Shown here: piece after piece, positions 12,334 to 56,270 of the stretch | How the letters are laid out: each line of letters begins with the position of its first letter | Numbering within the stretch: the stretch's first letter is position 1 | DNA from: Anaeramoeba flamelloides | Taxonomy: Eukaryota; Metamonada; Anaeramoebidae | Assembly (NCBI GenBank): GCA_027625915.1 | Contig: JANTQA010000033.1 | Span: 1,364,001 to 1,428,000, forward strand | Direction of reading: 5' to 3' | DNA: 64,000 nucleotides | Program-made: the position numbers and the translations under genes | The notes under the pieces: model-generated | Database searches by the model: none | Seen by the model: the letters and a program-made list of their open reading frames with translations, nothing else | Told to the model about the DNA's origin: nothing

Positions 12334-12644
12334 AAAAAGTATGAGAAAAACCAAACAAAACAATGAACAAGGAAACAAGAAAAAAAAAAAAAAAAAGGTA
12401 AAATTAATGGAATACCATAAACACGAGAAACTGGACCACCACCAGATACTCTAATTCTTATATCAAGATCGTCAAATTTGGAATTTCCAATAAGCAAAAT
12501 TGGTTCAAATAATTTTAATCTTAAAGGTTCTGGTTGGACTAAATGAAGTGGAACACCATTTACTTTAATGAGACCTTTACCTTTTTTGCATCTTGCAACT
12601 GCAGTTGCTGTTTTTTTTTTTCCGAAGGTTTGGACTACTTCCAT
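11892..12644 (-). CDS. rps16: 40S ribosomal protein S16 (uS9), three exons
   Basis: Small-subunit protein whose C-terminal tail reaches the decoding-site tRNA. Exons on the minus strand are 12416-12644, 12242-12289 and 11892-12037. The introns are 126 bp (GTATTC...ACAG, containing a long poly-A tract) and 204 bp (GTTTGT...ATAG). The joined frame gives 140 residues, close to the family's 140-150. It opens [20 protein letters not shown], continues with [10 protein letters not shown] and [10 protein letters not shown], then [20 protein letters not shown], and ends with the diagnostic [15 protein letters not shown]...ARRQKSYR and TAA. Splice sites were set by phase and by restoring these conserved joins. 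The start is the only ATG before the conserved [10 protein letters not shown]. No unusual features of the protein. Confidence 0.95.
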
Positions 12645-13221
12645 TCGAAATTCAGATTATTTGAGAAAAAAATAAAAAAATAAAAATTCTGATTTCAAAA
12701 TTTTGTTTATTTCTTTTTATTTGATGTATTTTATAAAAGCAAATCACTCTTTGGAAAATTAATCAGATTTTTGTGGTGACAGCCTCCCAAGAGATTGATG
12801 TAAATAGGGAATAAGCCATTTTCCGAATTTTTTCGTAATATATTTTTTTTCTCAACAATTTCGTAATTATTGATTTTTTATTTCACTATTTGTCTTCTTC
12901 ACAAATAAGATTTTGAGATCTTAAGGAAATCAGTCTGTATACCACTCAAACACTGGCACCCAATTAAAAAGTAATGTCCTTAATTTCATCTGTTGGGGTA
13001 TTACATTTAATATTTTTTATTATCTTATTTGTTGGTATATAAATTTTTCTTGTTTTTAGATTCGTTGTAACTTGTTTTCCTTTACAAGGATTATCCTCAC
13101 CATGTGTTTGTCAATAATAAAAGTATATTGTGATTTTGGGGAAATGGAGTGAGTAAAGATTGATTTAAATTAGACTTTAGAAAAAAAGACCCGTAAATGA
13201 ATAAAATCCCTTACAATATTC
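12645..13221. other. Upstream region of rps16, no gene seen
   Basis: It must contain the rps16 promoter, which cannot be picked out. An open run after a TTTTTAG site near 13060 (IRCNLFSFTRII) is short and unsupported. Confidence 0.3.
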
Positions 13222-16189: not shown

Positions 16190-17080
16190 TTATTTAATTT
16201 CAAAAAATTACAATAATTATTTTAAACTTGGTAAAATATAATATTTTGATTCAAAGAACAGTTTAAATCAATTTTTTTCTTTGTATTGAATAAAAAAAAA
16301 ATCAGAAAAAAACAGAATCAAACAATCAAATCAAAATTCCACCAAAAGACTTTTTTAAAACCAGGAAAATTCAACTTATAATCTAGAGTAATACTTTTAA
16401 TTTGATTATTTATTATCAATAATTAATAAAAATTTCTTAATATTATTTTTAATGTGTTATTAATAACCAAAAATTGAAATTACATATAGATTTTATAATT
16501 ATTTGATCAATTTTTTAAATATTATCTAAGCAAAAAAAAAACAAATTTCAATAAATAATTCTAATAAAAAAAAAAATAGATATTCTCAAACAACTGTTTT
16601 TAAAAATACCAATATTTCCTTCTTTATAACCCGAATATTTGAAAAAAGAATATTGCCTAGGTGTTTAAATTACAAGAAATTCTTTTAATATTTGTTAATA
16701 AAATAGATTATCAATTTTTTTGTGGATCTCCAAGGATACAATATTTGATTTATTTTTATTGTATTTTTAAAATAAGATTAAAAGTTCAAGGTTATTTATT
16801 CATATAGTCTCTCATAAATTACTAAAATTGAGATTTCATAAAAATAAAAATCTTTTGTCCAATTTTTCTTTTTCTACTTTTATCCAAAAATCCATACAAA
16901 AAAGGATCTCAATCATTGTACTGAAAATTTAATTTGAGAAAATGAATTCTTTTCTAAATGATAACTCTTTTCTCTTTAAAGTTGATAAATGAAGTTGTAT
17001 ATCAGGTTTAATTGTATCCCCATTTGTATAATTATTCTATTAGCTTTGTGGTAAAAATAAATAAAAGTTACTAGTTCCAT
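16190..17080 (+). mobile_element. Interspersed repeat Y, copy 2
   Basis: Collinear with 58135-59035 and inverted relative to 6867-7700. The 3' end reads ...AAAAGTTACTAGTTCC, the complement of a GGAACTAGTAAC terminus related to the GGGACTA end of the TTAA family. No coding capacity seen. Confidence 0.55.
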
Positions 17081-17270
17081 TAAAACCCAATTTATGTTTT
17101 TTCCAATTATATAAAGTTAAAGTTATCCTTCAATTTAATTAATTTGAAGGGGTTTTTATTGATAAAAACAACAAAATTATATTTTGGGTACTGGCAAATA
17201 GGTGTTCTACAATTGAATTTAAAACTCTTCTTCAAAAAATGGAAAAATTTAAAAATCAAGATAAATAAAA

Positions 17271-17475
17271 TACTGTTAATTGTAAAATAAATGCATCAAA
17301 TTTTTCATTCAGCTTTACAAAAAAATCAAAACTCAATAATTCTATAAAGTCTCCAATTCTAAAGGGAAATGAATAATTTAGACTTGTTATAAGTTTTAAA
17401 TTTTGAAATGTTAGATTTTTTATTATAAATTTGGAAAGCTGAATGAAAATATTGTTCAATTTATTTTTCAACAAA
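17271..17475 (-). repeat. Dispersed repeat with TTTCATTCAGCTTT ends, copy 1
   Basis: Flanked by inverted motifs (ATTTTTCATTCAGCTTTAC and GGAAAGCTGAATGAAAAT). The same arrangement occurs inverted at 33330-33530, with internal TTTCCCT-TTAGAATTG shared. The copy here keeps an open minus-strand frame of about 70 codons without ATG; the other copy does not, so it is probably not a gene. Confidence 0.45.
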
Positions 17476-19641
17476 TAGCATTACTTGAACAATTTAAAAA
17501 ACTAAAAAAGACCGAAAATGAAAATTATCTTTTTCAATTTTGAGAAATAATAAAAAATTTTCTGTAATTTTCTATTTATTTCTAAAATTGAAAAAAAAAA
17601 AAAATAATTAGATTTATTTGAGTTTTCTGTTAATTTAAACAATTAACACTTGATGGGTTTTCTAGAATTAATTAGTGAATGGTAAAATCAGAAGTTTTCC
17701 TCAATTCTTTCAAATTCTGTAAAAGTGCTGTTACATTTTTTTAATTTTAGAAATTAAGAAAAAATTCTCCAATTTTTTATTGATTGCTAAAAAAAACAAT
17801 ACACCTAGACACTTGGTTTTGAGAAGATTAAAAAAGTACTAATAAAAAAAATTAATTCTAACAAAAAAAAAAAAATTTTTAAATTGTTTTATACTCCAAA
17901 ATTAAATTGTTTAGTGAAAAAAACACACACCTTCTTTAGATCTTGTCAAAGAAAAAATTGCAAATTTTTAAATTTTTAAATCAAAATTTCTAAATAAAAA
18001 TTCCAATCCAAAAGTTCCTGTTAAATTGTCCCTGCAATTTATATTCAAATATTATCAAGTTAAAGAGTGGGGGCACAGACATACTTTAAATTATTATTGG
18101 GGAAAAGTCCAACAAGACTGAAACAAAATCGATTTAAAAAACTAACTTTTTTGGTATTAAAAATCCAGTCAAATTTATAGGGTATAACTATGATTTTTGA
18201 TAAAAACATCCAAAATTCAAAAATTTGTCAGCTTTTGGCTGATCTACAAGATATAATCAATTAACGATTTTTTTATTTGTAGTATTGTATTTCAGTTCCA
18301 AGAGTCAATGAGATTCAGAGAATCCTGAAGTTACTTGAGTTTTTTTGGAAAATAAAATGTTTTTTCGAAAAGTTAAAAAAAAATTTATTTATGTCTGAAT
18401 GAGTAAAAATATTCTTTTTAGAAATACAATTCAATACACAAAGAGAATTGAAGTGTTTTAAAAGTGTCTGCTATTTTTCTTAAAATAGAACTTTAAGTGT
18501 TATTTCGGATAAACAAGCAATTTATTTTTCTTTTTAAGAATTGTATAATAAAAGCTGGTTAATTAATGACAGTTATGAGAAGCAGTATGCGTACACTCTC
18601 AAATAGCGTAATATTCTTTGTGAGAAAAATCACCAAATTGAGATTCTTTATCAAGATCTTTTGACTAAAAGTTTTGTATCAGAAGCTTTGAGTTAATATA
18701 TCTTTTTTTAGATCCATGTTTTCTGATCTCTTTTGTTTTATAAAAGTAAAAAGTTTTCAAAGTTAATAATTGTTGTTTTTGTGAAACCATAATTATTATT
18801 TTTTTATTTTAGCAAAGTTTGTAAAAATTATGTATTTGTGTTTTTATAAAAATCATGAAATCTAAGAGAACAAATACTTCTTAGTCAATCTTTTATTGTA
18901 AAATTAAACTTTTTTTTAAAAAAATCTGTAAAAAAGTCCAAAAGTTAAAAAAGGAAAAATAAATTTTTTTAATAGAATTTCCTCTTTCACCATCATAGGT
19001 CTCTTTTTACTCAAAAAAATCTCTCCTTTTGACAAAATAAAACCCCCCAAGAAAATTTAAAATTAAAATATTACTTACCAAAAAAGAATAGAGAACCATG
19101 ATAAAAAACCACATCTATTCTAAATATCCATAAAGTCAAATCCTGAAAACAACAATTATTTCAACCAAATTTTGAAAAACACTATTTAAATCTTTTGGAA
19201 AAATAATAAAATACACAGAGAATGAGTTATTGAACAAACTGTGGTTAATTTTTTGAATTAGTTCTCAAAAATATGTATTTTTATGTATTCAAAACTTTGT
19301 TGTAAATTTGTTGACAAAAAAATTTGAAAAGTTAATTTTTGGTTTTAGCATTTAAAAATTTACCCGTTCTGTTTGCAAAATGTTTCTGTTATCCTCTTTT
19401 TTAAAAAAAAAAATTCCCAAAAACTCAAAGAATAAAAAAAAAAAACTCAGGTTTCTTCTTTTTGGAAAAAAAAACCACTTTTATCACAAATAGAAAAATC
19501 ATGTTTTTTGGTTACAAATCACTAAAAAATAATTTATTTTTTTTTTGTTTTCTTTTCGAAATAAATATTTAGTCCCAAAATTGTTTTTCCAAAACAACCA
19601 ACCACTCTCTTTTACACACACAAAAAAAACAAAAAAAAACA
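17476..19641. other. Gene-free stretch upstream of the large zinc-finger gene
   Basis: AT-rich. Two coding-like runs stand out: 18296-18402 on the plus strand (after a TTTCAG site, PRVNEIQRILKLLEFFWKIK and onward to TGA), and an ATG-led run of 33 codons at about 18566-18667 (MTVMRSSMRTLSN). Neither has a recognised domain. They may be relics of one old gene. The promoter of the downstream gene should lie in the last few hundred bases but no motif is distinct. Confidence 0.3.
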
Positions 19642-22600
19642 ATGTCTTATTTGAACAGCATTTCTTTTTTAAAAAAGCACACAAAAAAGAAAATAAAAAA
19701 ACCAAAATACCCACTCTGCGAAACGTATATAAAAACCTTAACTTCACTAACAAGTTTACCATCACACTTGGCTGTTAACAAAACCATTTTGTCAAAATTA
19801 AACAAGCGATTAGTTCAATTAGAAAAGTATCGTTATAACCTACTTTCAATTGAAATCAAGAAAGAAGCACAAGTGTCAAATCTGAAAACAGACATCGAAC
19901 AAACAATCGAACAAATTAATAATTACATAACCGAATGGGCATTTCCAAAGAATGCAAAACGTACCGTTGGCAACCAAGGCCAAGGCTCTGTAAATAGAAC
20001 TTCTGAGTCAACAATAATTAACCAAATCGAGAAAAGAATTCTCGAAAAAATCCAAAAATTAAAAAAATTATTCATGAGGTTTAATAAATTAAACCGAAAA
20101 AGATCTTTTTGTGAACAAAAGCTGGGGACAAATTGTAAAAAAAAAATTCTTTCGCAAACAAAGAATAATAAAACGAGATCTGATAACAATCAAAACGATC
20201 GAATTTTTGTTAGTCAAAAGCCAATACACAAAGGACACGAACAACACCAAACACAAGAAGGAAAAGAACAGCAACAGCAAGTACATGTACAAGTACAAGA
20301 TCACAAAATAAAAAAGAAAATTGGGATGGAGGAATTTAATTTCGAAATAGGCCTGACACACAAACAAAAAGGAAATGAAAAACAAACAATATATTTCCCC
20401 AATAAGATAAATGTGATTGAATATAATTTTCTCAATAAAAATCAAAAAGATCAAAAAATTGAATTTAAAAATTTACAGCTAATCAAAGACTATTTAAATC
20501 AGTCAAACGAATTAAAAGATCAGGTTATTTGTTTAAACGATTGCCACTGGGACGAAGCACTGACAAAGGTCATTTCACAAATGAATGCAGGGATCAAATT
20601 GCCAATAAATCCAAAGGCTTTAAAAATTGTGATCTTTTATTTGGAAACCAAATTAATGATAAATTCACAAGACTTATTAAAAATAGCGTTGAATTGCCTA
20701 AATTTGAAATTAAAATCAATCCAAAATTTAAGTGAATTTCAGCACCAAATCGAGATCCAATTACTTAAAACATTCCCTGTAATTTTATTTCGAAAGTGTG
20801 GTGTTGGGATCTTTGTGAGGATTGATTGTTTAAATTTATTAAATTTTTTTCCACAATTGATATTTCTAGAAGACGTTTTAAATTTAGACGAATTTGAAAG
20901 CTCATTAAGCGATCCAATCATTAAAATAACTAAAAATAGTAATTTCAATTTGAAAGAAAGATTAACCATTGGAACTAATATGAATAATTTGAAGAAATGT
21001 TATAATAATAATAATAATAATAATGATGATGATGATGATCAAATGGAAACAACAAATAAATCGATAATGGATTATAATCTACTGATGCTTCAATCAAAAC
21101 CATTAGAAAAAGAAAAGAAAAGAAAAAGATTAAAGGATTGGTATTTGGAAAATTCCTTAATTAAGAAATATATTAAAAAAGTCAAAGAAAGCTCAAGAAA
21201 AACATTATTATTAAACCCATTTAATTTCCCAAATAATAAGAACACTGATCAAAATCAAGGAAATGAAAACGAAATAATGATGAAAGAAAACAAATTACCA
21301 AAGACTCATAATTATGAAAATGAAAACGCAAATAACCATAACCAGGACCAGAGCCAAAGCCAAAGCCAAAGCCAAAGCCAAAGCCAGAGCCAAAGCCAAA
21401 GCCAAAGCCAAAACCAAAACCAAAATCAAAATACAGAACCACTTAAAGAAAAATACGGGGGGTATGACTTTGGATTACAATTTTCGAAAGAAGAGCATGT
21501 GGATAGGTTTTGGTGTCATACTCAAATAATGTATTTATTCGAGATGACAATTGCATTTTCGAATTTTTGTTCGATTTATGAATTTGAAAATTTTAATCAA
21601 ATAATAAAAACAAAACCAAAATTAATGATAAATGATTGTATAAATTTAAAAAAACTTTTTAAAAAAAATACAAATTCTAAAGAAATTGATGATAATTATA
21701 TTTTCAAAAATAGTTTATTATGCTCGGCATATTTAAAATATTCAACAACAAACACAGATAACAATAACAACAGCAACAGCAGCAACAACAACAACAATAG
21801 CAATAACAAAGATAATAACGAGAACTTTGAAAATAATTTTTGCATCGATCATCTTGATCGTTTACGATTTCGATTACCAGAAAGCGGCTATATTAAATTA
21901 TTTTTTTCAAAGGGAATTTTGCAAGTCCAAGATCACGTTAATCATCTGTTTCAAATGTTTAACGAAGAAAAGAAAAAAAACAATTTAAAGCCAATAAATA
22001 CAATTATTTGTCCAATTGGTGACATTTATTCAGATCCCCGTTCAATGATTTCCTTTATTTCCTTTGGTAGACTTTGGAGAGATGTTGGCTTTGATGTTCT
22101 AAATATTGCTTCTTTTGCTCCAGGACAAACCGATTCAACTCGAATGTCATGCTTTATTTCACATGTTCAAGATTCTCTTGAAAAAAAGTCTTCATTCAAA
22201 GACAATCAGAAAATAGACTCTAATAAAAACACTGACACGAATAATGATTCTAGCAGCTACCATTACAATTACAATTACAATTACGTGGATAACCACAATA
22301 ACAATGATCATGTCAATTTTAAAAATGACCACATTAAAATTAAAAACGAAAAAATGACTGTTAATAATAAGAAAAATAATGTTATTATTAAGAATGAAAA
22401 CATCTATAATACAAAATTAAATAATATTAAAATTAAAAATGAAAGCAGTGTTAATGATAATATTCCTCAAAAAAATTTTCAAAAATTTTTCCAAAAATGG
22501 AATAATTCTAAATTTGAAGGATTTAATATTCAATGTTTTAATAAAAAATTAAATTTCGAAAAGCCAAACAACATTGATATTGATTTAACACAAAATAATA

Positions 22601-22983
22601 ATAATAATAATAATGTAAATGATAATAAAAAATATAATGATATGGATTTAATTATAAAGTTTTTAAAATCTAATAAAGAACAAATTGAAAATAACCAAAA
22701 ATTAAAGAACATTAAAGAAGAAATTGAATTTTTAATAAAACATACCATTAAAAAACCATATTTGATTATGTTTAAAAAATGTGAAGATTTGGCATGTACA
22801 CACTGTAATAATAACCCAATTAGATTGGATCCAAATTATTGGAATTTATATTCTTTAATATCAAATGAAAAAATTTTCCAACCATTACCATCTTTAGCCA
22901 ACCCTTCCCATTTTTGCTCTTTTAAAGAATTGTATGAAATTTATGAGAATGATAAATTAAAAGATTTTGATATCCATTATTAT

Positions 22984-23020
<37 letters not shown>

Positions 23021-23685
23021 GCAATGATAATGATGGCATTAACGACAACGTCAATGATAATGATTATTATTACAATAATGATGATAATAATCAGTTTGAA
23101 TTTTTAAGTAGTAACAACGATTTTAATTTTCAAAATAATATATCACCATTAAAAAATAGTAATTCACTATTAAAAAACAATACGCAAACCCAAGGCACAA
23201 CAAAGAATCAAAATAATAAAGCTTCAAATTCCTTTGAATATTTACCTTCAAAAAATAATTGGTTCAAATGCTTAGACGCTTCTTGTAATTATCTTTGTAA
23301 TTCCAAAATTGAAAGAGATCGACATTTTTTAATATTTCATCAAGAGAGCGAAAAAAAAAATTTAAAAAAACAATTAACATCATCATCATTATCACTGTCA
23401 TCACAAATAATTAAAAATTTACAGATACCAGATCAAAAAAAAAGTTTAATTAAAAATATTAATTTTGGAAAACAAAATACACCAGTTTTAAATAACAAGC
23501 AAACGAATACCAAAGATATCAAATCTGGAAATACCAAGAAATATATTTGCAAATACATTAAAAACCATGAAAGCGGGCATATATGCGGCTTAGAATTTTC
23601 TTCTTCTTGGCAACTTAGAAAACATAAAATGGAAGAAGGGCATTCGCTCCCAAGAGGCAGACCAAAAAAGGCAGAAAAGATTTAA
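19642..23685 (+). CDS. Large Asn/Gln-rich protein with DDE-like core, two C2H2 fingers and an AT-hook (transposase-derived?)
   Basis: Intronless, 1347 residues. The ATG sits in an AAACA context. A coiled-coil N terminus (about 45-110) is followed by conserved-looking blocks separated by simple-sequence runs: Asn/Asp repeats, and about ten SQ dipeptides near 570-590. A block at 750-850 contains ICPIGDIYSDPRSMISFISF (Asp794) and SFAPGQTDSTRMSCFISHVQ. A later block has KCEDLACTHC. Finger 1 is Cys1210, Cys1215, His1228, His1233; finger 2 is Cys1303, Cys1315, His1328, His1334. An AT-hook PRGRPKK (1337-1343) ends the protein. The order 'D...D...APGQ' block, KC...CxxC, C2H2 resembles an uncharacterised family of transposase-like proteins known from invertebrates; this is from memory and not verified. 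A DNA-binding nuclear role is likely. The usual acidic residue after APGH/Q is not evident, so catalysis is doubtful. No terminal repeats or target duplications flank the gene. Confidence 0.8.
21350..21430 (+). repeat. Coding microsatellite (AGCCAA)n
   Basis: A hexanucleotide repeat AGCCAA/AGCCAG inside the large zinc-finger gene encodes alternating Ser-Gln, then Asn-Gln. Open frames seen on the other strand or frame here are by-products of the repeat. Confidence 0.85.
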
Positions 23686-24267
23686 TTTATAGATTGTCTT
23701 GTAAGAAATAATCTTTTAATTAATATTAAATTGTTTCTGTTTATTGGTTATTATGTATATTATTCAAATTCCCGTAGAAATCAAAAATGATAATAATAAT
23801 AATAAAAAGTGGTCAATAAAATAGACTTTAAATTGCAAATTAATCATATAAATAAAATAAAATTTATCTAATTTATTAATAATTTATTTATTCACGGGGG
23901 GTAACAAACTAGGAAATCTCATGTTTGTCAGAATCACTGACTGATTGAATTTATATATATCTATATCTATATATATATATATATATGGTGATTTTTATCC
24001 AAAGTTTAGCTTTGATAATATTAATAATCAAAGGATAGATTTTTTTTTAAAAAAAATTAAAATTTATCGAATTTAAAAATGATTACTCTTTTCATTTTGT
24101 GCTTACTTTTTTTTATTTTTTATTTTCATTTTGATTTTTATTTTTTTTAAAAATCTTTTTGTATAATTGTTTTTCATTTATAAGTAAAATTATTATCCAA
24201 ATAATAAGTTTGTTATGTATTTTTTTTTTAAGCATAAACTTTTAATTTGTAACATTTTAGGTATATA
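23686..24267. other. 3' flank of the zinc-finger gene
   Basis: Contains (AATAAT)n near 23790, an (AT)n microsatellite at about 23950-23986, and T-rich sequence. No gene seen. Confidence 0.4.
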
Positions 24268-24503
24268 GTCTGTGCACTTTTTAATGCACACCCCAATTAA
24301 TCAAATTTAAGGCATTATTATTATTTTTTTTTCAGGTACAACTCCTAAAGATAAGGCATTATTATTTTTTTTTTTTCTAAGAGTGTTTGATGATGGAAAA
24401 TGAGATTGTACATAATTATCAAAAATCTTTTTTTGTGCCGTATTGAGATAAAATTTTTTATATCTTTATTTAATTGATTGGATTGTGCATTAAAAAGTCC
24501 CTA
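24268..24503. mobile_element. Foldback MITE-like element (about 236 bp)
   Basis: Inverted ends share GACTTTTTAATGCACA (left GCACTTTTTAATGCACACCC; right, opposite strand, GGGACTTTTTAATGCACAAT) and continue with CCAATTAATCAAAT / CCAATCAATTAAAT. Inside, a segment starting AAGGCATTATTATT occurs twice in direct orientation. No coding content and no clear target duplication. Confidence 0.55.
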
Positions 24504-26620
24504 AATTTATAATTTTTAATAACTAATGATAAGAAAGAAATTAAAACACTGTAAAGTTTAAGATAGTATTGTAGTTGCTCTCGAAAGATTTTGAGAAATC
24601 GTTACTTTATTAGGAAAATTTTGTGATCATCTTGTTTTCAATTCAATTTGAATTAAATAAGATGTTTTTTACTTAGAAAATTTGACTTTAAAAAAGTTAT
24701 AAAAGGTTATTTTAGAAAAGTTTAATTTATTGTTTATGACGTTGTTAATCTCATAAACCCCAGTAGACTGCTTATCTTAAATGCCTAAAATTTGAACAAA
24801 TCAGTTTGACCTAAGTAACTAAAATATTTGTTCAATAAAAACTAAAAAAAAAGACCTTAATAATATGGATAATATTGGAAAAAGAATAAGTTCCTTTTCT
24901 TTATTAAAAATAATATTGAAATACAAACATTGTTTTTTCCCTTATTTGGAAAAAAAAAATATAATATTATTTTTAAAAAAATAAGAAAAGCCTTTGGTCT
25001 CTTTTTTCTTTGAAAAAGTAGAAAAGAAACCACTAATAGAAGAATTTCAAAATGTGAAAAAATAAAAATTATAAATTTAAGAAAAATAATAAAATAAAAG
25101 AATTTTTTTTATTATGTAAATTCAAGACCATTTCAAAAATATTCAAAATTACTCTGTTAAGAACTCATGATAGATGCAGGGTTATATATTTGATCACCTT
25201 TTGGGTTATTTCTTAACAAGACCTTAATGAAAGGACAAATGGATAATATTTGAAAGTTGGACTAGCAAGTTTGTGTCTATAGGATTTTAATACTATTTTT
25301 CTGTACAATATAAAGAATTCTTAATTATTTTCTATTTTTAGATAATTCATTGGAAGAAAAAGTTTGTGTGAAGGGAAAGTTTTCCAAAGTACCATGAAAA
25401 ATAACAAATTGGTTTATTTTGTGTTTTTTTTTTAATTAGTTTATTTTTTTATTTTTGATTTCTTGCTATTTCTAGTTATATCCCAAGTACCTAAAAATAA
25501 ATAGCGTCCCCTAAAGTTTCATTTGTTAAACAGTCTTCTAATTATAATTCTTTGTTTAATGATTACCTTCCAAACTTGAGATGTGATATTGTTCTAGTAC
25601 TAAGAAGATATTAATCATGTTTTTTAAATTTGATAATAATCATCTTTCTTTACTCCATAGAATATAATAATATTGTTCTTCCAAGCATAAATTGTAACTT
25701 AACAACATGATTGTTTCCAAGTCAAAATAATAATAAATATATATATTATATCTATGTTTAATTTGTTTTATTACAAATCTTTTAGCTATATAATTGAAGA
25801 GATTATTTTTCAACAAAAAAAGTTCAAATATTAAAATAAATTATTTGTGAAATTCTTCATTCACAATTCTAAAAAAAAGTAACAAATAGTAAAAATTGTT
25901 TAATCATTATTGTAATTATAAAATAATTGCAACCGCTTCAATTTTCAAATGTTCTTTATATATTCTTAACTTCATTTTTAAATCAAGTATAAAATTAGAT
26001 TGGATAAAAGAATCAAAATGAAATTCAAAAAAAAAAAAAAAAAAAAAAATGATATTTAAACCTCTTAATTTTTCTAAATTTAACTTGTTTTTAAATAGTT
26101 ATTAATTGTAAAAATGAATTTTATGGTCTTTTTTTGATACTATGGTTTTTCTTTACATGTGGAGTTTGTTTAAAGATTTTAATAATGATTATTAATATCG
26201 TTCAAATTATTTCAGGTTAAGATAAACTTATTTATCATTGGATAATAAGTCCGAAATATTTGGAAATTCGTTATTTTTTTTTTTCACAAAATTCCAAAAC
26301 AATGTATTTTATTACTAAAATGGTTATAATGTTATATTTTTTTTTAAAAAAAAGTCCTAATGATTTATTTGAAAACTTTTTAACAATCAAAAATTATTTT
26401 TTTTTTTGTATTTTGAAAACAAGTAAATGAGTTTTTTCATAACTTTAAAAAATCAAAAAATTACTGAATAGACTTTAATAAAAAACAATCAAATTATAAT
26501 TTCTAACAAATTTCATGTTATCAATCGTATGTATTTACATTATTTTTATAAGTAGGGATTTGAATTATCATGTAATAAATTAAAAATACCAATAAAACCA
26601 CTTTTTAATTTTAATTTTTT
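24504..26620. other. Gene-free AT-rich stretch
   Basis: No recognisable gene, terminal repeat or second copy. Poly-A tracts near 26030 and scattered AT runs only. Confidence 0.3.
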
Positions 26621-26621
26621 A

Positions 26622-26763
26622 TTATTCTACAAATAAAAGATCCAAAACAAAAAAAAATAGTCTTAGTAGTTCACTTTTACATAGAAGATTATTAATTCAT
26701 TCGAAATATCCAATCACAAATTTAATTGAAGACCTACTAAACGAACTACAATCGACCAAGTGA
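26622..26763 (+). other. Candidate coding exon, no family assigned
   Basis: The plus strand reads as a basic stretch (KRSKTKKN), then serines, then a helix-like LLIHSKYPITNLIEDLLNEL, ending QSTK and TGA (26761-26763). The frame is open for about 55 codons but has no ATG. AAG|TGA could alternatively be a GTGAAT donor. A second open frame without ATG at 26889-27110 (LILKLASKNSKNRRITVKL) follows a TTGTAG acceptor-like site. The two may be exons of one unrecognised gene or remnants; phases do not give a unique join. Confidence 0.25.
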
Positions 26764-28037: not shown

Positions 28038-29099
28038 TTAGAATTTTAATGGACCACGTTTTTTTCGGAGTTTAATATGAGAACCACAGTCAACAATTCT
28101 TCCTTCTTTCATGTATTGTTCATATTCTTTATGAGTAAATTGAGTGAATCCCCATTTTTTTGATTCAACAATCCTAAATCTACCTGGGAATTTTCTTCCG
28201 GCAAGGGTTAATGCTCTGTTTGCTAATCTAAGGTTTTTTTTTTGAACACGAAGACTTAAGACAACTTGGTTTTGTTTGACACGTGCAACTAACCCAGTTG
28301 GCTTTCCGAATGAATGTCTCATTCCTGTTTGCAGACTAAATGGTTGTTAAAGGTGTTTTTTTTTTTTTTTTTTTTTTTTTTTTGAAAATGAAAAGTCAAT
28401 TTGTTTGAATGAAAAATAACAAAAAATTAGTATGGACTTGTTCGAGATGGCAAAATTTGTAGGATTTAAAACAAGATGAAAAAGAAAAAGAAAAAAAAAA
28501 AAGCAAAAAAAAATAATAAAAAAAAAATTTTAATTATGTTTTTTTGTTTGCTTTTTTTAATTTCAAATTACAAAGAACAAAAATCAAAAATAAAGAAAAA
28601 TAAAAGCCAAGGAAACTTGACTTACCGATCTGCGCCTGCACATGACAGCATTTTGTTAATTCTGATAACGTGGTATGGGTGAACTCTGATTCTTAAATGG
28701 AACCCTTCTCTTCCTGCTTTTTTGGTCATATGCTTATTGGCTGCAATACGAGCGGCTTCGAGAGCTTCAGAACTGATTTGGAGTTTTTCTAAATTGATCA
28801 AATGGAGGCAGTATGGGAATTCTGATACCTTTGCTTTCTTTTTACCTGTATCAAAAATTCTGATCTTTGGATCTTTTTTAATTCAAAATTTATTTAATAA
28901 CAAGAACATCAATTTGAAAAAAAAAAAAAAAAAGAAAAAGAAAAAGATAAATAACAGTTAAAAAAGAAAAAAAAAAAAAAAGAAAAAGAAAAAGAAAAAG
29001 AAAAAAGTGTTGTTTACCTGGTACACTTCTGTTAAACCTAGATTTTGGGAAAGGTTTGTTTTTACAAAATCTGTAGCACTTTGCTGGTCTTCTACCCAT
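28038..29099 (-). CDS. rpl10: 60S ribosomal protein L10 (uL16), three exons
   Basis: Large-subunit protein that lies between the peptidyl-transferase centre and the 5S/GTPase region; it joins late in cytoplasmic subunit maturation. Exons on the minus strand are 29018-29099, 28626-28872 and 28038-28335. The introns are 145 bp (GTAAAC...AAAAG) and 290 bp (GTAAGT...TTTAG). The joined protein has 208 residues (family about 214). It begins [16 protein letters not shown], carries [25 protein letters not shown] and [18 protein letters not shown], and the P-site loop CAGADRLQTGMR, which is restored exactly across intron 2. The C-terminal part has KFPGR and KKWGFT. The start is the ATG of the invariant MGRRPA. 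Both introns hold long A-rich tracts on the plus strand or its complement. Confidence 0.95.
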
Positions 29100-30131
29100 T
29101 TTATAATAAATTAATTAAAAGAAATAAAATGAAAAAAATAAAAGTTTTATTTAGTTTAATTTCAATGAGCAACAATTGTTATTTATAGAATTCTACTTGT
29201 ATTTGTTTTGTTCTTTTGAAAACAATTTGAGAAATAAAACTTAAAATTGTGGTAATAAATTGATAGGAAAAAAAAGTTCAAAGTTTTTAATTGAAAACAG
29301 AAAAAGAACCTGAATAAGAAAAATCAATTAAAAGAAGAAATCAATTAACTTCAAAGAACAACCGATTATTATATTTTCAATCAATTCAATCAAAAAAGTT
29401 AAATCTTCTTTTATTATCAAAATTGTTGTTGAGTCTTGGCGATTGCAAAAATAGTCAATTTTTTAAATAAATTTTTAATAATTAGATATAAATAAAGAAA
29501 AAACTTAGCTAAAGGTAAAATTATAAAAACTGTTATTTGTGTTTAGTCCTTCATTTTGTCTTTATTTATTTTTTTTTTTTTATTAATTGTTCTTATTTTT
29601 TGTTTTTGTGTTCTATTAAGGTTACCAATTAAAAAACATGTTTTACTTTTTTCCCTGTTTCACTTTTTTGGACAACATATATTATTTTTTTAATAGTTAC
29701 TAAAAAACAACAAGAATTTGATATTCTGGTATGTGAAATAATTTTGGAAAGATTTTCAGTTTTATTATCAAAAATTTAAAATTTGTTGAGAGAATTGGTT
29801 TTTTTTTGGATTTTGTTTTGTACCAGTTAGAAATAATTGGGGTTTTTTTAATTTAGGTATTGAAGTTTGTTAGGTGTTCTAAAAATAGTAATCAAAACCT
29901 TTTGTTCACACCTTTTTAAAATGTTGATTCCCGTCCCAAGATTACCTTGATATTTTTTATCAAATCATTTTTATATTGTAATGTATATATTTTTTCAGAA
30001 TTTCTGATTTTTTATTGTAATTCATAAAAAAAAAATGAATTAAAAGATGAAACTAGGTTCATATTTATTTTAAGGTTGGTTTTAATACTGTATTCTTTGA
30101 TTTAAAACACACACATGTAAAACACACACAA

Positions 30132-34734: not shown

Positions 34735-40516
<5,782 letters not shown>

Positions 40517-55575: not shown

Positions 55576-56270
55576 TTACATTAACGAGCACCATCTTCTT
55601 CCTCCCTTTTTTTCTTTTTTCTTTTCATTGTCATTATTTGAACCAAATTTAACTTTTCTGATTTCACGTACTAAACCAAAAAACGCTTCTTCAACATTAG
55701 TTCTTGTTTTAGCAGAGGTTTCGATGAATGGAGAGTTGAAACTTTTTGCCAAATCGGTTCCTTCCCCTTGTGAGACTTGTCTTTCATTTTCAAGATCGTT
55801 TTTGTTTCCAACGATCATCATTGGTACTTCGTCAGAGTCTTTTGCTTGTGTGATTTGTTCTCTAAAACTGGAAACTTCGTCAAAGGAGTTTCTTGAGTTG
55901 ATTGCATAGACAACCAAAAAGCCTTCCCCTTCTCGCATGTATGAGTCTCTCATTGCAGAGTACTCTTCTTGGCCTGCAGTATCGAGAATATCTAACAAGC
56001 AGGTTTCTTCGTCAATTACTACTTGTCTTCTGTAGGAGTCTTCAATTGTTGGATCTGTTTGTTCCCAAATTCGTGATTATAATAATCCAAGAAGAAAGAA
56101 AGAAAGAAAGAAAAAAGGAAAAAAAGAAATTTTTGTTTTTTTGTCAAAAAAAGGTGAATGGAAAATTATTTACCATAAACATCAACAAAATGGTTTTGGA
56201 CCAACTGAATTGTCAATGCAGATTTTCCAACACCACCACCACCAACAACAACAATTTTGTATTCAGTCAT
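55576..56270 (-). CDS. ras: Ras GTPase (classical, CAAX-terminated), two exons
   Basis: Membrane-anchored signalling switch. Exons on the minus strand are 56174-56270 and 55576-56054, with a 119-bp intron (GTAAAT...AACAG). The intron interrupts the codon for the Asp of switch I, DPTIEDSY. The protein has 191 residues: [20 protein letters not shown] with P-loop Gly12 and Gly13, Thr35 in [16 protein letters not shown] with Gln61, GNKNDL and ETSAKT. The hypervariable tail is lysine/arginine-rich ([12 protein letters not shown]) and ends in the CAAX box CSLM; terminal Met favours farnesylation. Residue 11 is Gly rather than Ala, as in several amoebal Ras proteins. All catalytic residues are present, so it should cycle normally. 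Switch I is identical to animal Ras, implying conserved effector and GAP contacts. Confidence 0.95.
56093..56135. repeat. (GAAA)n tract in the ras intron
   Basis: Five to six AGAA units followed by an A/G-rich run, within the intron. Confidence 0.8.

Follow-up and report, generated by a model that had tools for sequence, protein, structure and literature searches.

A 1,347-codon gene of Anaeramoeba flamelloides belongs to a 30-locus host family of putative DNA-binding regulators, possibly derived from a transposase

The 64,000-nucleotide stretch of Anaeramoeba flamelloides DNA analysed here (the window; C34:1364001-1428000 of a 76-contig, 254-Mb assembly) carries a gene with a long single open frame that is one of a family of 30 loci. 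Copies of this family multiplied along with their chromosomal neighbourhood and not by jumping, a conclusion for which the evidence of fixed neighbours covers the window's subclade of five. On balance, the gene is best explained as an exapted host gene, a member of a lineage-expanded family of single-frame, probably DNA-binding proteins that would derive from a transposase and would now serve as regulators.

The open frame, its paralogues and their selection

GC content in the window is 19-28% (2-kb steps), and its genes are eukaryotic by their Pfam matches (RPS16, RPL10, Ras, PH, SPRY and B-box). The gene under study and the two neighbours used as synteny markers are:

19642..23685, + strand: single-frame ORF of 1,347 amino acids, ATG to TAA, one of 30 family loci
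12444..12647, - strand: RPS16 exon (Ribosomal_S9), the 5' neighbour
28041..28346, - strand: RPL10 C-terminal exon (Ribosomal_L16), the 3' neighbour

An intact ORF of more than 4 kb had been proposed in the original prediction, and all 1,347 amino acids do lie in one open frame; the term "intronless" is a reading of that frame from DNA alone. The probability of such a frame arising by chance at this base composition is about 1e-55 (log10 P = -55), and the longest open run in 200 first-order Markov copies was at most 135 codons, against the 1,347 of the ORF, which is genuine and far from chance. Both ribosomal protein genes look intron-split when read from the window, with the open stretches of RPL10 spanning 28041-29114. 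The large low-complexity repeats described earlier are also present in the protein, where 342 of the 1,347 residues are of low complexity and Asn numbers 212. Elsewhere in the window, a short tandem run coding CDF repeats is found at 36246-36482.

When residues 601-860 served as the query against the organism's own genome, 25 matches were obtained at E<=1e-3 and 39 at E<=10. Each of three divergent members used as queries (E<=0.1) recovered the identical 30 loci, of which the window-core search holds 29, the missing one being C34:2739644. Counts for large families are lower bounds by this search method, and the true size of the family is probably near 30 because the three query lists agree; the paralogue count that the original prediction had asked for comes to 30 dispersed loci in 254 Mb. 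Frames of 1,118-1,715 amino acids are present at 28 of these loci. The two shorter ones are C37:12008699 (984-1,054 amino acids, one stop in the match) and C17:2103813 (505 amino acids), and a third locus, C1:2132653, is apparently frame-shifted past a poly-Asn run: the frame lacks the Cys block (described below), and a match lies in another frame at C1:2133537.

The alignments comprise 29 family rows; the thirtieth member, C34:2739644, is known as a search row only and stands in none of them. Left out were L021-L027 and L029, which repeat loci held elsewhere, and L028, L030, L037, L039 and L042-L045, which were based on weak matches (E 0.007 to 8). L042 had appeared to be a member at E 1e-17 with the first, uncleaned profile, which had already drawn it in; it was excluded, its match sitting in Asn-rich stretches and scoring below zero with the final profile.

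Of 14 pairs analysed by the Nei-Gojobori method, 13 have a dN/dS of 0.10-0.39; four of the 14 reuse members of other pairs, so that not all are independent, and several loci end 1.5 kb from the match. The remaining pair, at 0.55, contains the short frame C17:2103813. Across ten sister pairs dS is 0.18-0.65. Since low-complexity and gap-adjacent codons were masked, these ratios apply to the structured parts only, and it is these parts that are held by purifying selection, as had been supposed for the gene.

Copies multiplied with their chromosomal neighbourhood

The genome contains 12 RPL10 matches and 26 RPS16 matches, numbers that point to repeated duplication of blocks or of the whole genome. 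Five of the 12 RPL10 copies lie 3' of, and no more than 18 kb from, the cores of five family genes, namely the window gene and the four members closest to it (C9:3257690, C1:12477143, C17:4120948 and C9:13028822), which together form a clade with support of 100/99. If copies were placed at random, RPL10 would stand beside the four other clade members with a chance of about 8e-12. RPL10 and the family gene share a strand in C17 and the second C9 block and lie on opposite strands in the other three. RPS16, the family gene and RPL10 follow one another in this order, with matching relative strands, in C34 and C9 only; none of the 26 RPS16 matches is near the family gene in C1, C17 or the second C9 block. 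The Ras neighbour (55579-56076) was rejected as a synteny marker, the Ras family being too large: 150 matches were scored among 930 genome candidates.

At two further places, on C24 and C51, RPS16 is near RPL10 and a family member is listed at neither. The first of these, C24:18952000-18963200 (L046, L047), is a sister block of the window, with RPS16 83% and RPL10 89% alike in DNA. Within the 4.8 kb between the aligned RPS16 and RPL10, tblastn (E<=1e-3) of the window protein and of 45 ORFs from the loci detected no remnant of a family gene. The gene was thus most probably duplicated along with the region around it and lost later in sister blocks. Collinearity over longer distances is seen for two paralogue pairs on C48/C33, which share order and strand at spacings of 599 and 559 kb, and for two on C9/C17, likewise with order and strand preserved, at 2.07 and 2.02 Mb. 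Together, dN/dS values of 0.10-0.39 and the shared collinear neighbourhood indicate a host family that grew by block duplication under purifying selection. Domestication, one of the two options first offered for this gene, is thereby upheld, if taken to mean a fixed host gene, with 30 loci, the RPL10/RPS16 neighbourhood and the constraint seen in 13 of 14 pairs.

The other option, an intact or recently active transposon gene, would account for a long open frame in dispersed copies and for zinc fingers and an AT-hook, which occur in some transposases. It is, however, highly improbable and already contradicted by the evidence here. The nearest copy of the window gene is 78% identical in the core, and the family pairs that reach 94% sit on collinear contigs; the RPS16/RPL10 neighbourhoods are collinear too, and no near-identical copy at an unrelated site was seen in genome searches, the DNA search having scored 40 of 604 candidates, which speaks against the notion of a recent element. 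In the same 40 scored candidates of 604, similarity in DNA to the nearest paralogue begins 30 bp ahead of the ATG and goes no further than the stop codon; it ends at the edges of the ORF, with no shared ends outside it. For two near pairs with 10-kb loci, similarity continues for about 0.2-1 kb outside the ORF, to one side or to both, and the shared inverted ends that a search of paralogue flanks might have revealed were not seen in either. No terminal inverted repeat around the ORF stands out among the 25 longest of 732 inverted pairs (16600-26700), whose arms are A/T-rich and 70-88% complementary, in agreement with the original prediction. Finally, two short frames among 30 and one probable frameshift make a small number for a transposon whose copies decay.

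Near several family members there is a dispersed repeat of some 200 bp, whose copies are 74-91% alike and occur in both orientations (L033 9087-9296, L038 1-200, L036 9716-9841 and L041 1974-2191); it is perhaps a small inverted-repeat element.

The conserved core and its possible ancestry

Three parts of the protein are conserved across the 29 rows: an N-terminal region, a core and a C..C..C/H block. The motifs named in the original prediction (GDIYSDPRS, APGQ, KC...C..C, two C2H2-type motifs and an AT-hook) were all located in the window protein, the first three at residues 793-801, 826-829 and 1046-1055. Its features, all on the + strand, are:

20527..20886: N-terminal conserved region, residues 296-415, C.N...WD ... 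IE.QLL..FP.IL in the 29-member consensus
21487..22218: conserved core of the 29-row alignment, residues 616-859, a DDE/RNase H-like candidate
22021..22023: Asp794 of GDIYSDPRS; D in 21, E in 5 and neither in 3 of 29 rows
22138..22149: residues 833-836, NPI(N/S) in many paralogues; acid at 836 in 0 of 29 rows
22639..22923: residues 1000-1094, with Glu1027 and the C1047-x4-C1052-x2-C1055 ... H1090 block
23269..23340: C2H2 motif 1, C-x4-C-x12-H-x4-H, residues 1210-1233; 11 of 29 rows
23548..23643: C2H2 motif 2, with a long first knuckle, C-x11-C-x12-H-x5-H, residues 1303-1334; 13 of 29 rows
23653..23670: AT-hook RGRPKK, residues 1338-1343; 13 of 29 rows

Pro379 is near-invariant in the N-terminal region of the 29 members, and N767, G809 and W812 of the core are invariant in the 29 rows. 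The Cys block (C-x4-C-x2-C in most rows, with a later His) was found in 26 of 29 rows, its three Cys being kept in all 26, and is probably zinc-binding. When the finger/AT-hook tail was searched against the genome, 14 matches were obtained at E<=0.1, all inside the family, the fourteenth being C34:2739644; because 16 of the 30 members have no such tail at that threshold, it is not the common function of the family. Pfam scores of the window protein for zf-C2H2 (motif 2) and the AT-hook are below the curated cut-offs, and the C2H2 spacing and the RGRP core are present by pattern and in the conserved tail.

We read the core as a strand ending in an acid (794), a helix, an LDxLN strand and the start of a helix at (A/P)PG..NPI, followed by the Cys block. 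On this layout, descent from a transposase of RNase H/DDE type is plausible. Acids occupy position 634 in 28 of 29 rows, 736 in 26, 794 in 26 and 818 in 27, and position 1027, the alternative candidate for a third acid, in 26 of 26; beyond 818 no column of the core is acid in half of the rows, and no acid is conserved after LDxLN. In Tc1-like DDE proteins NPxE stands at the position equivalent to 833-836. Thus, with the third acid that a DDE layout expects at 836 absent from 29 of 29 rows, and Asp at 794 in only 21 of 29, loss of catalysis is likely, although likely at most, given how well Asp794, Asp818 and Glu1027 are conserved. The family is probably non-catalytic.

Some layouts, hAT- or Mutator-like, have an insertion between the catalytic acids, and Asp794 and Glu1027 might be paired across one in a domesticated protein that still cuts DNA, for example in programmed rearrangement. 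The conservation of acid at these two residues would suit such an enzyme, as would purifying selection. Nevertheless, it is improbable: a strict metal site should not allow Glu at 794 in five rows and a non-acid in three, and the first Asp is not obvious in the expected strand, though E634 and D736 are well conserved.

Searches for known relatives of the core were negative. Among the Pfam matches of 29 members (E<=0.1) there was no transposase or RNase H model, and a profile search of PDB sequences (E<=10) gave no transposase, its three weak matches being polyphosphate phosphotransferases (E 0.02-0.03). Single-sequence AlphaFold2 without an alignment gave no confident fold (pLDDT 40.6). In one of the 29 members MCM6_C matched below the cut-off (E 0.039), overlapping conserved sequence near residue 1027; TrAA12-like (two members, 3e-4) and eIF3_subunit (one member, 7e-4), both better than E 0.001, were discounted as assumed low-complexity matches. 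Scans of the window with Pfam, Rfam and for tRNAs found nothing bearing on the origin of the gene, and tblastn against phage gave no lead. Viral contigs searched with the core, and again with the 29-row alignment, returned five stretches each time, none of them a relative. Motif patterns of a putative transposase-like relative hit 0 stretches in genome contigs and in viral contigs. No real relative outside this genome was found in the sequence collections searched, nor a description of such a family in the literature searched.

A possible relative is an uncharacterised transposase-like family of invertebrates that would carry DGGPDH...LDLD.L...APxxSxxNPxER and then KC...C..C, in the same order as here. 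An approximate sequence for it was composed as a query. Against the family core profile it scored E 0.015, a weak match and the best of 1,000 (best of 999 shuffles, 0.31), and against the Cys-block profile E 9e-9, again the best of 1,000 (best of 999 shuffles, 0.36). In the genome, 11 of its 12 matches at E<=10 fell in family loci, one of them in another frame, and two family-locus matches were at E<=1e-3, the best at 2.8e-5. Because the alignment was already known when this sequence was composed, these figures may be biased and serve as a lead only.

A host family of multidomain DNA-binding proteins that is specific to this lineage and never had a transposase ancestor, and in which the strand-D-helix-strand-helix look is superficial, would likewise explain the negative Pfam and PDB results, the want of a conserved acid past LDxLN, and multiplication with the neighbourhood, as is ordinary for genes. 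Such an origin is a serious contender, if a somewhat unlikely one. It leaves aside that the core and the Cys block match the putative invertebrate relative collinearly, a weak argument since it depends on the approximate sequence, and it does not lead one to expect long single frames next to ribosomal protein genes that are apparently intron-split.

Putative function and relation to known systems

If the family is transposase-derived, as we prefer, its ancestor would be a transposase-like protein of DDE/RNase H type, the core of which was retained as a scaffold while the full acid triad was lost. The C..C..C/H block would bring the protein to AT-rich DNA, helped in 14 of the 30 members by a C2H2 finger and the AT-hook, a second C2H2 motif being present in 11 of the 29 aligned members; the Asn, Asp and Ser-Gln runs may be linkers. 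Once on AT-rich DNA, the protein would act as a chromatin or transcription regulator and not as a DNA-moving enzyme. The family proteins are probably nuclear, and their most likely function is that of DNA-binding regulators of AT-rich chromatin.

Pfam searches yielded no model for the core or the Cys block, although 30 loci in one genome carry them. Should the transposase ancestry be true, this would be a large exaptation in which copy number was raised by duplication of chromosome blocks, and because growth took that course, the path from capture to family should be traceable in sister blocks, including that of C24, where the gene is absent, and that of C51, where none is listed. One more specific history can be put forward tentatively, as a possibility that falls short of probable: an undescribed DDE-type superfamily that invertebrates also possess would have entered this protist lineage in a single capture and then lost the Glu of NPxE. 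One branch would have acquired or retained the finger/AT-hook tail, and the family would have been preserved as 30 regulator loci across repeated duplications of blocks or of the genome.

Three known systems invite comparison. In our own reading of the alignment, Tc1/mariner-IS630 (DDE_3) and ISAzo13-like DDE proteins resemble the core in the succession of a strand ending in Asp, a helix, a strand and (P/A)PG...NP(I/V)x where a helix begins, but the family here has no Pfam match to them and, in 29 of 29 rows, no acid counterpart of the NPxE Glu. The putative invertebrate transposase-like family would share the order of the core (a DGGPDH-like strand, an LDxL strand and an APxxSxxNPxE helix) and the KC...C..C that follows, whereas the copies here are without the NPxE acid and, in 14 of 30, a C2H2 finger and AT-hook close the protein. 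The third comparison is with transposon-derived transcription factors, among them ZBED, CENPB, THAP, FLYWCH and others (PMC10027918). The DNA-binding domains of those factors are absent from the Pfam matches here, the host is a microbial eukaryote and not an animal, and the copies spread with their neighbourhood; what the two would have in common is a transposon-like protein kept as a lineage-expanded set of DNA-binding host genes.
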